From contig NZ_CP024920.1 of assembly GCF_002795865.1 (NCBI RefSeq), positions 1,895,001 to 1,959,000 of the forward strand: a DNA stretch of 64,000 nucleotides, written 5' to 3'. The notes beneath the pieces are model-generated. The model was not told where the DNA came from, did no database searches, and worked only from the letters and a program-made list of their open reading frames with translations. The first letter of the stretch is position 1; every line of letters begins with the position of its first letter. This stretch comes from Qipengyuania seohaensis (GTDB lineage: Bacteria; Pseudomonadota; Alphaproteobacteria; Sphingomonadales; Sphingomonadaceae). Both the position numbers and the translations under genes were made by a program. Below, piece after piece: positions 26,798 to 46,976 of this stretch.

Positions 26798-27688
26798 TCA
26801 GCGAAGCCGCGAAAGAATGGCTGCTGACATGCGCTTTCCGAGCTCCGGCCCCTGTTCGGGGTAGTAATAGGGCTCGATCATCTCCGCTTCCATGACCGCA
26901 AGCATTCCATTGGGAAGCCGCGCCATGTCTACCCGGCAATAGAGCGGACGTTCGAACGGCAAGGCGGCTACAACGTTGCTTGCCGTTGCCAGATCCTCGG
27001 GAGATGGCGCGTAATCGCACTCGTAACCGCCGTAGAGCGACTGGATACGATATTCGCCTTCAGCGGCACGCTTGAGCACGCCATGGGAAAATTCGCCGTC
27101 GACGAAGAACAGGGTGTATTCTCCCTCCCCTACAACGCTCGGAAGGAACGGCTGCACCATGCAGGGCCGCCCCATCGTCCAATCGGCCGAGGGAAGGGCA
27201 GAGCGAGAGAAACTGAACTGGCCCAATCCGCCTGCTCCGACCTGGCGCTTGACCACCACCCGGTCGACCCCGAAGTGATCCATCGCATTCTCAACGTCTC
27301 CGGCGTCGAGATCGTCGTGCCACAGCGTCGGGACGGTGACTGCACCTTTGGCGGAAAGGTCTCTCAAATATCCCTTGTCGGCATTCCAGCGCACGATCCT
27401 GGCAGGGTTGTGGACAGCGATCCCCGCGTCCTCCAGCTGATCGAGCTTTGCCAAAAATTCCTCGGGATGATCCTGGTAATCCCAGGCGGTGCCGAGGAGG
27501 ACGAGGGGAATGCCGGCGAAATCGTCTACTGGCGCGCGCCAGTCGATTTCGACGAGTTCCAGCCCCGCCTCCTCGAATGCCGGACGCAGTGCAGCGGTCA
27601 CGAGATCGTGCTCGAATGCGTCGCCGCGACGGTCTCCCGCGCCAGGCAGCGTTTGCGCACAGGCAAGAAAGCCGATGCGTGTCGTCAT
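26798..27688 (-). CDS. ATP-grasp family protein of unknown product
   Basis: A 296-residue protein with RIGFLACAQ at the N-terminus, LLGTAWDYQDHPEEF near 69, and VRWNADKGYLRDLSAKGA then VPTLWHDDL near 105-130. VVVKRQVGAGGLGQFSFS has the ATP-grasp lysine and glycine loop. MIEPYYYPEQGPELGKRM is the C-terminal metal-site region (VMEAEMIEP). The frame and motifs match an uncharacterised RimK/glutathione-synthetase-like family. It starts one base before the stop of the cystathionine gamma-synthase-family gene upstream, so both are probably co-translated. Amide or peptide ligase activity is inferred; substrates are unknown. Confidence 0.78.
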   Translation of the reverse strand: MTTRIGFLACAQTLPGAGDRRGDAFEHDLVTAALRPAFEEAGLELVEIDWRAPVDDFAGIPLVLLGTAWDYQDHPEEFLAKLDQLEDAGIAVHNPARIVRWNADKGYLRDLSAKGAVTVPTLWHDDLDAGDVENAMDHFGVDRVVVKRQVGAGGLGQFSFSRSALPSADWTMGRPCMVQPFLPSVVGEGEYTLFFVDGEFSHGVLKRAAEGEYRIQSLYGGYECDYAPSPEDLATASNVVAALPFERPLYCRVDMARLPNGMLAVMEAEMIEPYYYPEQGPELGKRMSAAILSRLR

Positions 27689-27689
27689 T

Positions 27690-29003
27690 CTAGACTGCGT
27701 CCAGTGCCTGTTCGAAATCGGCAATCAGGTCGTCCGCGTCCTCGATCCCGATGGAGATGCGCACGAGATTGTCCGATATTCCCAATTCCGCGCGGCGCCC
27801 TTCGGGGACCGATAGATGCGTCATGCTGGCCGGGTGGCTGGCAAGTGTTTCGGTACCGCCGAGGCTGACCGCAAGCTTGGCGATCTTCAGCGCGTCGAGG
27901 AAACGGAAGCATTCCGCTTCGCCGCCCTTGAGCAGGAGCGAGAAGGTCGAGCCTGCACCGAGGCAGTGTCGGTTGTAGATGTCCTGCTGGCGCTCGTCCT
28001 TGATCATGCCGAGATAACCGAGGCCTTCGACCTTGGGGTGCTTAGCGAGATATTCACACACCTTCTCCGCATTTTCACCGGCGCGCTGCATCCGCAGTTC
28101 GACCGTTTCGAGGCTGCGGCAGAGCATCCACGCGGTGTTGGGATCGCAAATGCCCCCCATCGTGTTGCGGAGCATGCGGATAGCGTCGATGAAGCGCTTC
28201 TTGCCGACCACGCTGCCCGCGACGAGATCCGAATGACCGCCGACGTATTTGGTCAGCGAGTACACCACGAGATCTGCGCCATGGTCGAGCGGGCGCTGCC
28301 ACAAGGGGCCAAGGAAAGTGTTGTCGATCGCGATAGAGCAGCGATCAGGATCGAAATGCGCATCGCGCGCTTCCTTGACCGCTTCGATATCCACGAGCGC
28401 ATTGGTCGGGTTGCCGGGGCTTTCGAGGTAGATCATCGGCACCTCGCCGCCCTGTTCGTCCGCCATCGCCTTTGCGCGGGTCATGACATCATCGAGCTGT
28501 TCGCGGCTGGCGCCAGCAGGGAAGTCGATGAAGGTCACGCCGTATTTCGCCATCGTCTTCGCGATGAAGCCTTCCGAGGCAGCGTACAAAGGACCTGAGT
28601 GGACAATTACGTCGCCTGCCTTGCAGGCAGCCAGGAGAAGAACGGCGATGGCGGTCATGCCGCTGGAGAAGGACAGCGCTTCTTCAGCGCCGTCCCAGAC
28701 AGCCAGACGATCCTCGAGGATTTCCTGGTTGGGTGCGTTGAAGCGCGAATAGACGAGGCCGTCGGCTCCGCCGGGACGCTTGCCGGTGATGCCCTCGAAA
28801 TGCCTCTTGCCGTCTGCTGCACTCGGGAACGCGAAGGTCGAGGTAAGGAAGATGGGAGCCTTGAGGCTGCCTTCCGAAAGAGTGGGGTCAAATCCATGAC
28901 CCATCATCAGAGTGCTGGGCTTGAGGGGGCGTCCGCCGACTTCGGGAATCTTGCGCTTGGGCGCCATGCGGGGGCTGGTGGGGTCGATGTCGTTGTCGCT
29001 CAT
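27690..29003 (-). CDS. cystathionine gamma-synthase family PLP enzyme
   Basis: A 437-residue Cys/Met-metabolism PLP enzyme. LVYSRFNAPNQEILEDRL holds the Tyr/Arg phosphate contacts from the neighbouring subunit. YLESPGNPTN and SIAIDNTFLGPLWQRPLDHG hold the PLP Asp, and VVYSLTKYVGGHSDLVAG the Schiff-base Lys. HPASMTHLSVPEGRRAELG is the C-terminal substrate region. Start MSDNDIDP at 29003 is chosen because it overlaps the stop of a small leader frame; a GTG at 29069 is possible. Cystathionine synthase, methionine gamma-lyase and O-acylhomoserine sulfhydrylase cannot be told apart here. Confidence 0.88.
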   Translation of the reverse strand: MSDNDIDPTSPRMAPKRKIPEVGGRPLKPSTLMMGHGFDPTLSEGSLKAPIFLTSTFAFPSAADGKRHFEGITGKRPGGADGLVYSRFNAPNQEILEDRLAVWDGAEEALSFSSGMTAIAVLLLAACKAGDVIVHSGPLYAASEGFIAKTMAKYGVTFIDFPAGASREQLDDVMTRAKAMADEQGGEVPMIYLESPGNPTNALVDIEAVKEARDAHFDPDRCSIAIDNTFLGPLWQRPLDHGADLVVYSLTKYVGGHSDLVAGSVVGKKRFIDAIRMLRNTMGGICDPNTAWMLCRSLETVELRMQRAGENAEKVCEYLAKHPKVEGLGYLGMIKDERQQDIYNRHCLGAGSTFSLLLKGGEAECFRFLDALKIAKLAVSLGGTETLASHPASMTHLSVPEGRRAELGISDNLVRISIGIEDADDLIADFEQALDAV

Positions 29004-29062
29004 GGGTGAGCATCCTTCCTGCAACGGCGCTCCCAGGAAGGCGGGAGCTGATTTCGGGCCAT
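29000..29062 (-). CDS. short leader frame (20 residues) upstream of the PLP enzyme gene
   Basis: A 21-codon frame on the minus strand reading MARNQLPPSWERRCRKDAHP then TGA. TTAGGAG lies ten bases before its ATG, and its TGA overlaps the ATG of the PLP enzyme gene as ATGA. The frame runs through the hairpin that covers the ribosome site of that gene. Basic residues and one Cys dominate the second half. It could be a translated leader that opens the hairpin; the alternative is a chance frame in the untranslated leader. Confidence 0.4.
   Translation of the reverse strand: MARNQLPPSWERRCRKDAHP
29014..29041 (-). promoter_or_regulatory. hairpin that masks the ribosome-binding site of the PLP enzyme gene
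   Basis: CCTTCCTG and CAGGAAGG form a perfect 8-bp stem with a 12-base loop. On the minus strand the downstream arm contains AGGAAGG, the likely Shine-Dalgarno sequence, ten bases before the ATG at 29003. In the folded RNA the ribosome site would be paired. Translation of the short frame at 29062 would unfold it. Confidence 0.5.
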
Positions 29063-29147
29063 GCGGCACCCGCTCCTAACCTCCGCAGGAACGCCTCTCC
29101 GCACGCCGTAGCAATGCGGCGTGGATTACGGAGCGTCAGGCGCCTTT

Positions 29148-30557
29148 TCAAGCGGCAAGGGTGGCCATTCCCCAAACCACGAAGACGATCACGATTATGC
29201 CGACTAGGTCGAGAAGGATGCCGGCCTTCACCATCCGTTCGATCCTGATCCGCCCGGTTGCCCAGGCAATTGCATTGGGGCCTGTTCCAGCCGGCAGCAT
29301 GAAGCCCCAGCTGGCTGCGAGTGCGGCCGGCATGGCGAGCAGGATGGGATCGGCGCCCAGCGCCACCACCAGGCTTGCAACCACCGGGATAATCCCGCTC
29401 GCGGTCGCAACATTGCTCGCAAACTCGGTAATCAGGACGACCATTGCCACGATTGCCAGCGCGACCAGGATGAGGGGCCAATTTTCGAGCGGCAGCAAAG
29501 CATTGCCGAGCCAGTCGGCCAGGCCGCTGGCAGACATTCCGGCAGCAAGCGCCAGGCCGCCACCGAACATCATGATCACGCCCCATGGCGCCTTGTCCGC
29601 TTCGTCCCACTTCAGCATCGGACGACCGGTCCCGTCTGGCAGCAGGAACAGCAGCAGGCTCATGCCGATGGCAATGGTCCCGTCGGTCAGCGAACCTGCT
29701 GGCAGGTAGGGTGCGATCCAGCGCTGGCCCATCCAGAGCAGGAAGGTGACGGCGATCAGCGGCACCAGGCGTCGCTCCGCGTTGGACCACGCGCTTTGCG
29801 TATCGATAGCTGCTCTGGCGGCTTTGGCGTCGAACGGATGGGCGGACACGCGCTGCACGCGGGCAATCAGCCAGGCAGCGACAGGAATGCCGATGGCGAC
29901 CACGGGAAGGCCATAGAATGCCCAGTCCGCAAAGGTGATGCGTGTGCCGGTCAAGCTATCCAGCAGACCGACAGCAATCGCGTTTGTGGGCGATCCCACC
30001 AGCGTGCCCAATCCGCCGATGCTGGCCGCAAATGCGATGCCCATTGGAAGTGCACCTGCCAGCCCATCCTGTTCGCTGTCCGCAAGTCCGCCGCCCGCAA
30101 GCACCGCTACTGCCATGGGCATCATGATCAGCGCAGTCGAAGTGTTGGAAATCAACATGGAAAGTATGGCGGCGGTTATCATGAAGGCCAGCAGCACGCC
30201 CGTCTGGCTGCCGCTCCCGACCGCACGCAGGAGAGCGAGGGCAAGGCGGCGATGCAACCCCGTCCGCTCGATCGCCAGTGCGATGAACGCCCCGCCCAGG
30301 ATCAGGAACAGGATTGGCGAATAATAGGAACCGGCGGTAGCCTTCGCGTCCATCACCCCGGCAAAGGGTAACACGAGGAAGGGCATCAGCGCGGTGGCGG
30401 TGAGGGGCATCGCCTCCGTCATCCACCATGCTGCCATCAGCACGACCAGCCCCGCGACGACACCGGCCTCGCGCGACATGCCGGTTGGCATCGGCGCAAG
30501 AATGCCCGTCAGGAGGCCCAAGGCCCCGACGATCAGTCCGATCTGTTTTGCGTTCAA
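29148..30557 (-). CDS. DASS/SLC13-family sodium-anion transporter
   Basis: A 469-residue membrane protein with about eleven hydrophobic segments. ISNTSTALIMMPMAVAVL near 135 and ITEFASNVATASGIIPVVAS near 375 are the paired SNT motifs that bind sodium and substrate. IGGLGTLVGSPTNAIAVG near 180 and MLPAGTGPNAIAWATG near 430 are the matching Gly/Asn loops. Family members carry di- and tricarboxylates or sulfate. The start is a TTG at 30557 with GGAGGG five bases upstream. Not obviously linked in function with the PLP gene downstream. Confidence 0.9.
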   Translation of the reverse strand: MNAKQIGLIVGALGLLTGILAPMPTGMSREAGVVAGLVVLMAAWWMTEAMPLTATALMPFLVLPFAGVMDAKATAGSYYSPILFLILGGAFIALAIERTGLHRRLALALLRAVGSGSQTGVLLAFMITAAILSMLISNTSTALIMMPMAVAVLAGGGLADSEQDGLAGALPMGIAFAASIGGLGTLVGSPTNAIAVGLLDSLTGTRITFADWAFYGLPVVAIGIPVAAWLIARVQRVSAHPFDAKAARAAIDTQSAWSNAERRLVPLIAVTFLLWMGQRWIAPYLPAGSLTDGTIAIGMSLLLFLLPDGTGRPMLKWDEADKAPWGVIMMFGGGLALAAGMSASGLADWLGNALLPLENWPLILVALAIVAMVVLITEFASNVATASGIIPVVASLVVALGADPILLAMPAALAASWGFMLPAGTGPNAIAWATGRIRIERMVKAGILLDLVGIIVIVFVVWGMATLAA

Positions 30558-46127: not shown

Positions 46128-46218
46128 TGGCGGAGCAGGAGGGATTCGAACCCTCGATACGGGGTTACCGTATACACACTTTCCAGGCGTGCGCCTTCGA
46201 CCACTCGGCCACTGCTCC
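46128..46218 (-). tRNA. tRNA-Ser(GGA)
   Basis: On the minus strand the gene runs from GGAGCAG (46218 down) to CTGCTCC, with the G discriminator at 46131 and CCA encoded at 46130-46128. The anticodon GGA is at 46184-46182 in CTGGAAA. A long variable arm and GGTTCGAATCC T-loop are present, as in class II serine tRNAs. It reads UCC/UCU. Confidence 0.97.
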
Positions 46219-46886: not shown

Positions 46887-46976
46887 GGAGAGGTGGCAGA
46901 GAGGTCGAATGCGCCGCACTCGAAATGCGGTATACGGGCAACCGTATCGTGGGTTCGAATCCCACCCTCTCCGCCA
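46887..46976 (+). tRNA. tRNA-Ser(CGA)
   Basis: The acceptor arms GGAGAGG (46887-46893) and CCTCTCC (46966-46972) pair fully; G73 and CCA (46974-46976) are encoded. Anticodon CGA is at 46921-46923 in ACTCGAAAT. Long variable arm (TACGGGCAACCGTA) and GGTTCGAATCC T-loop identify a class II serine tRNA. It reads UCG. Confidence 0.97.

Follow-up and report, generated by a model that had tools for sequence, protein, structure and literature searches.

In Qipengyuania seohaensis, the element described here lies on the minus strand between a gene for a DASS-family anion symporter and a gene for a PLP enzyme of the Cys/Met family. Positions are those of the window, that is, the whole 64-kb stretch of DNA that was analysed. 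The genes and signals around the element are the following:

29148-30557, minus strand: upstream gene, same strand, DASS-family anion symporter (TIGR00785); the gene end overlaps the -35-like site
29146-29151, minus strand: -35-like TTGAAA of a putative promoter, read from the sequence, with a -10-like CGTAAT at 29125-29130
29000-29062, minus strand: 20-codon frame of the preliminary description, judged coincidental, the frame not being conserved
27690-29003, minus strand: PLP enzyme gene, predicted to be the regulated one (NCBIfam NF005455/PRK07049, 'cystathionine gamma-synthase family protein', 667.5 bits, cutoff 504)

A DASS homologue ended less than 400 nt upstream, on the same strand, at 70 of the 96 loci with enough upstream sequence. 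Directly downstream of the enzyme gene, the window codes for an ATP-grasp-like protein (26798-27724) that resembles the D-cycloserine synthetase DcsG (111.9 bits, cutoff 360), and this gene was retained downstream in 24 of the 82 loci with enough sequence. Two tRNA genes (46131-46218 and 46887-46973) were the sole matches of the window at the gathering thresholds of Rfam 15.

The enzyme (27690-29003) has LYAAS at the place where the methionine gamma-lyase entries 5e4z and 4mkk, which we take to be mutants of the catalytic Cys115, have IYGAT. For this reason the enzyme would be without the catalytic Cys115, and it may be something other than a classical methionine gamma-lyase. The nearest solved structures (5ijg and 7swh) bear general names only, so that no ligand could be named from them.

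The preliminary description had seen here a leader-peptide translational attenuator, and the features on which it relied, namely a 20-codon ATG frame with its own AGGAG, an ATGA overlap and an AGGAAGG in a perfect 8-bp stem, are all present on the minus strand. The ATG at 29062-29060 starts 20 sense codons (MARNQLPPSWERRCRKDAHP), and the stop, TGA at 29002-29000, overlaps the enzyme ATG (29003-29001) as ATGA; the AGGAG (29077-29073) stands 10 nt upstream of the ATG of the frame. The sequences CCTTCCTG (29041-29034) and CAGGAAGG (29021-29014) are perfect 8-bp complements separated by a 12-nt loop, the second arm being that of the enzyme Shine-Dalgarno sequence (SD). The Cys codon is indeed number 14 of the frame (TGC, 29023-29021), while its placing just inside the 3' arm holds for its last base only. 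Taken alone, the frame, the overlap and the 8-bp stem are unremarkable, because 71 perfect inverted repeats of 8 bp (spacers of 4-20 nt) were found across the 64-kb window and the folding of the 191-nt leader was only 2.1 sd better than that of its shuffles (z-score -2.1). The significance of the region comes from conservation.

The leader RNA and its conservation

Upstream regions of the orthologues from the window genome and from 36 other genomes of the genus (enzyme identity 81-100%) were compared. A block of about 95 nt was kept in these 37 genus loci, the surrounding sequence having diverged, and what is conserved is the RNA, not the frame. From 5' to 3' it is made up of the outer stem P0, a purine-rich internal loop (likewise conserved well within the genus), stem P1 with its near-invariant loop, a variable spacer, stem P2 with its own loop, 6-11 nt, AGGAAGG and the start codon. 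In the window the parts are:

29099-29104, minus strand: P0 5' arm, GUGCGG, pairing with 29061-29066
29087-29093, minus strand: P1 5' arm, CGUUCCU, of a covarying helix
29076-29088, minus strand: near-invariant P1 apical segment, CUGCGGAGGUUAG, made of the loop GCGGAGGUU and two closing pairs; it contains GGAGGU
29071-29077, minus strand: P1 3' arm, AGGAGCG, which includes the AGGAG previously taken as the leader SD
29061-29066, minus strand: P0 3' arm, CCGCAU, which includes the A and U of the ATG of the 20-codon frame
29029-29048, minus strand: P2 hairpin, GCUCCC-GCCUUCCU-GGGAGC, with loop L2 at 29035-29042
29014-29020, minus strand: AGGAAGG, the enzyme SD, with complementarity to L2 (predicted pseudoknot stem S2); L3 is 29021-29028 (8 nt)

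For the wider comparison 192 loci were collated, two of them (L102 and L250) were dropped, and the remaining 190 gave 164 distinct leaders; two loci without AGGAAGG (L024 and L037) were omitted from alignments A1 and A2, and L102 from alignment A4. The GTDB genome collection was also scanned with a pattern naming just the two loops, which gave at least 120 loci. The sequence CTGCGGAGGTTAG was found in 161 of the 164 distinct leaders and with one substitution in the other three; of the 192 loci, 120 had been retrieved with this exact string. The 37 genus loci were selected independently of it, and in them the P1 apical segment was unchanged save for one C-to-A in L030. Loop L2 read GCCTTCCT in 154 of the 164 leaders, GCCTCCCT in nine and GCCTGCCT in one.

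The two arms of P1, and likewise those of P2, covaried strongly. In alignment A4 (45 sequences), 95.0% of the P1/P2 cells were paired and eight pairs held 42 double-change cells, a level reached by none of 500 shuffles. A second alignment was made of 100 of the at least 120 loop-scan loci, some genomes being shared with the first set; it was fitted to the model and so leans towards the structure, and in it 98.2% of 1285 P1/P2 cells were paired and 8 of 13 pairs showed double changes, which came to 111 cells; none of 500 shuffles reached this level. When the registers of this alignment were slid by 1-3 columns, pairing fell to 57% or less. For P2, 99.0% of the cells were paired, with double changes at five of the six pairs. 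By simple parsimony on one gene tree, that of the enzyme, for the 96 of 100 loci with an enzyme fragment of at least 150 residues, 49 direct double (compensatory) changes were counted.

P0 was less regular, with 77.5% of its cells paired in the genus alignment and two pairs changed on both sides. Its own 5' and 3' flanks paired at a mean of -14.1 kcal/mol as against -11.9 kcal/mol for permuted flanks (sd of the permuted means 0.17), relatedness being uncontrolled in this comparison. Pseudoknot-free MFE folding recovered both P1 and P2 in only 68 of the 164 leaders, and in the window's own pseudoknot-free fold a long P1:P2 duplex won over the two hairpins; the duplex may itself be an alternative state.

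Of the 164 distinct leaders, 94 have TTGAA at a distance of 61-65 nt upstream from the P1 loop. With a promoter-like sequence at this fixed distance, the message probably begins with the RNA itself. By eye, no U-run of an intrinsic terminator was noticed after P2.

The 20-codon frame fared differently. Just four of the 164 distinct leaders have an ATG frame that passes through P2 and stops no more than 12 nt from the gene start (10 with GTG allowed, 22 with TTG too); these counts are approximate, the gene starts having been chosen by a script and being wrong for a minority (spacings were negative or zero in 27 of 109). The Cys codon has no counterpart in the homologous leaders, since the other three ATG frames hold one, one and no Cys codons, at other places. 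Moreover, the ATG and the AGGAG of the window frame fall in the 3' arms of P0 and P1, respectively, and this placement suggests that both are parts of the RNA fold. A peptide-based attenuator responding to cysteine can call upon the frame, the ATGA overlap and the SD stem that exist in the window genome. Nevertheless, its start codon and its SD would be stem arms of the RNA and its frame offers one Cys codon only; we rejected it on the non-conservation of the frame and regard it as extremely improbable.

Complementarity between the P2 loop and the enzyme SD

The part of the preliminary description that did stand concerns the SD. The masking by a complementary stem that it had proposed corresponds to a conserved sequence complementary to the enzyme SD, as judged by complementarity and spacing, and this stem is the second stem of the predicted pseudoknot. 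Alignment of related leaders, which had been suggested as a check, thus left the frame without conservation and kept the stem in this other form; likewise, what remains of the attenuator reading is an SD to which a conserved sequence is complementary. On the evidence of these alignments, conservation backs pairing at the SD, and by the same test the leader frame is rejected.

AGGAAGG was found within 54 nt after P2 in 109 of the 164 leaders, whereas among 560 other long ORFs at the scan loci only one has it no more than 40 nt upstream, and a contiguous match to L2 of at least 6 nt was found in 136 of the 164 leaders (40 nt after P2) as against 17.9% of the controls (30 nt); the starts of the control ORFs are those of the longest ORF, some of them wrong, and the leaders are related to one another. 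L3 measured 6-11 nt in 105 of the 109 leaders holding AGGAAGG. The lengths agree with the classical H-type geometry, namely a first stem S1 (P2) of 6 bp, one unpaired G as first loop, a second stem S2 of 7 bp and an L3 of 6-11 nt. Because of this fit, the 8-bp stem noticed at the outset is best interpreted as stem S2 of a pseudoknot, which would be able to coexist with P2.

The seven L2-SD pairs hardly vary, six of them being invariant in the genus, so that the pseudoknot rests on complementarity and spacing. Compensation between L2 and the SD was seen in single cases, in L112 (GCCUGCC with GCAGGC) and in the Citromicrobium loci L169 and L189 (GCCUCC with GGAGGC). In three genus loci, L028, L031 and L194, L2 was changed while the SD was unchanged, and in 23 of the 164 leaders the longest contiguous stretch complementary to L2 within 60 nt was shorter than 6 nt, three of these leaders (L170, L179 and L217) being cases of mis-located loops. 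In L182, L183 and L185 P2 is separated by one more hairpin from an SD that lies far off; this SD, of the form AGGGAGG, remains complementary to the P2 loop if one G-U pair is counted.

L2 has a possible second partner. The GGAGGU of the P1 loop and the GCCUUC of L2 would form a free duplex of -7.3 kcal/mol, or of -10.2 kcal/mol where L2 is GCCUCCCU (GCCUCC); the duplex of L2 with the leader averaged -9.25 kcal/mol. Since GGAGGU can also pair with L2, the P1 loop and the SD would be two competing partners of the same loop, and as the loops hardly vary this predicted kissing contact has no covariation of its own.

Distribution and linked gene

The PRK07049 enzyme gene lay directly downstream, on the same strand, in 119 of the at least 120 loci of the loop scan; at the remaining one, L250, the sequence ends 131 nt after the start of the P1 core. 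Genera among the titles listed were Qipengyuania, Erythrobacter, Aurantiacibacter, Parerythrobacter, Citromicrobium and Tsuneonella, together with MAGs labelled Novosphingobium, Sphingorhabdus and Parasphingopyxis. In the window genome a single exact P1 core was found, other partial matches being at the level of the controls.

Of 396 genomes of the order, 130 gave a match to a covariance model (R1); five of the 130 had only hits below 35 bits, which leaves 125, all in the family of the window. When 40 of the R1 matches were fetched, the enzyme followed in 34 of 34 at 41 bits or more and in none of the six weak ones. The latter (L089-L094, below 35 bits) were rejected as GC-rich hairpin repeats without the enzyme. 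GC-rich repeats of this kind, one core of which is CGCGAAGGCGGGGGC, are recurrent in genomes of the family and mimic two-hairpin RNAs, and they are likely a dispersed repeat family. A broader model (R2) matched 113 of 337 genomes of the family, 108 of them at 48 bits or more. In 385 genomes of the class (Alphaproteobacteria), R2 found nothing convincing outside the family of the window, to which the only three genuine matches belong; two hits of 25-27 bits were discarded, L132 lying in a GC-rich hairpin repeat and L133 looking coding by eye.

Orthologues without an R1 hit were common, the enzyme being present at E 1e-120 or less in 289 of the 396 genomes of the order. Among 20 upstream regions of such model-negative orthologues, taken from listed coordinates and so not at random, 19 were plain leaders without the RNA and one was a diverged copy. 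A near-palindromic sequence, GGTTNCAANTGNAACC, was found with up to three mismatches near the enzyme start in nine of these 20 regions (L254, L256, L257, L259, L263, L264, L265, L268 and L271, all RNA-less) and in 26 of the 164 RNA-bearing leaders; it is possibly a transcription-factor operator overlapping the -35 region.

Models of regulation and known systems

The genome comparison thus gave covarying P1 and P2 helices with near-invariant loops, P0, one copy per genome and the same gene downstream. Two properties expected of a riboswitch were found, a covarying structured domain in the 5' leader and a platform able to hide the SD, the latter by complementarity and spacing. The element is almost certainly a structured cis-acting RNA, and it very likely masks the SD. 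As a whole, the sequence evidence leans towards positions 29014-29104 (minus strand) being the 5'-leader RNA of the PLP enzyme gene and working as a riboswitch-like translational switch.

In the OFF state of such a switch, the P2 loop GCCUUCCU, as an anti-SD, would pair with the SD AGGAAGG and block ribosome binding. The P1 loop GGAGGU, as an SD mimic, would take the P2 loop by a kissing contact and thereby free the SD, and we give this competition between the loops an even chance of being real. The P0-P1 domain would read the signal that sets the balance, which would most likely be a small molecule linked to the sulfur-amino-acid chemistry of the enzyme; that a small molecule is sensed is argued by analogy with known leaders that precede metabolic genes, and here the arguments for and against seem to us evenly weighted. 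Tentatively, and with more doubt than conviction, we propose a new riboswitch class of the Erythrobacter/Qipengyuania branch (Sphingomonadaceae), which would sense a PRK07049-related metabolite and in which the GGAGGU mimic and AGGAAGG would compete for one anti-SD loop.

The near-invariant P1 loop, the single target gene and the restricted clade would also suit a leader whose P1 and loop are bound by a protein, be it the enzyme or a dedicated RNA-binding protein, with a shift of the SD-masking equilibrium as the outcome; indeed, a protein-binding leader would likewise be expected to be confined to one family and one gene. We consider it unlikely, although nothing specific speaks against it; the regulated gene is not an r-protein gene, and the purine-rich internal loop between P0 and P1, conserved in the genus, would suit an aptamer. 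Both loops, near-invariant and complementary to SD or anti-SD sequences, could instead be a meeting point for small RNAs, either because a trans RNA with a CCUCC-type loop pairs with GGAGGU or because the released leader acts in trans through its anti-SD loop. A plain target site needs no covarying stems, however, and with one exact P1 core in the genome and other partial matches at the control level this seems quite improbable. It is very unlikely that the leader is a fixed, unregulated device that tunes translation or mRNA stability by keeping the SD weak, or an RNA thermometer: SD masking alone would account for P2 and its match to the SD, but the near-invariant P1 loop and the covarying P1 and P0 would be left unexplained. 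RNA thermometers are not expected to hold their loops invariant.

Whether a riboswitch or a protein-bound leader, the element would add an RNA family that is absent from Rfam 15. Ligands can be tested directly on orphan riboswitch candidates that covary clearly and have one target gene, and as PRK07049 is functionally uncertain, the ligand of the RNA would point to the substrate or product of the enzyme. If it is real, the proposed rivalry of a mimic SD with the true one over a single anti-SD loop would be a simple and testable switch design.

Known riboswitches and other Rfam RNAs were rejected, there being no family match: Rfam 15 gave chance-level hits only on the element at E values up to 10, and, with E up to 0.5 allowed, no match overlapping it at any of 20 diverse loci. 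The RNA was not found described in the open-access literature, a coverage outside which most subscription-journal papers and all preprints fall. In SAM-II (SAM_alpha, RF00521), SAM-V and preQ1-type riboswitches, a hairpin loop pairs with a downstream strand that contains the SD, forming an H-type pseudoknot before a metabolic gene. The same loop-SD layout is predicted here from the sequence; the element differs from these classes in having no Rfam match, an extra P0-P1 domain with the loop CUGCGGAGGUUAG and a different enzyme downstream. SAH (RF01057) and SAM-SAH riboswitches are likewise proteobacterial leaders tied to methionine-cycle genes, but SAH scored 14.6 bits (gathering threshold 37) on the wrong strand, with an E value of 1.4 that corresponds to chance, and SAM-SAH had no hit on the element at E 10 or below. 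Leader-peptide translational attenuators share with it the masked SD and, in the window genome, a short overlapping frame, which differs here in not being conserved.

According to the sections of PMC4239095 at hand, SAM_alpha also precedes Met genes of Alphaproteobacteria, and methionine regulation was analysed in seven Sphingomonadales genomes, for which those sections report no RNA element. The metXZ element of beta-proteobacteria, as described in the same sections, is a putative orphan RNA with a pseudoknot, alternative folds and one copy per genome, lying before metX or metZ, and it is followed by a terminator hairpin with poly-U (PMC4239095). It resembles our element in being a single-copy orphan with a pseudoknot and alternative folds, and is set apart, by that description only, by its beta-proteobacterial origin and its terminator, none having been noted here. 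The odc1 motif, of which a Sphingomonas echinoides representative was tested, is also a structured leader; from the description in the available part of PMC8632094, it differs in its uORF/two-start-codon arrangement and in having a different gene, by name, downstream. Claiming membership of no known class, we conclude that these leaders most likely form a new structured family, which would work like an SD-sequestering riboswitch.
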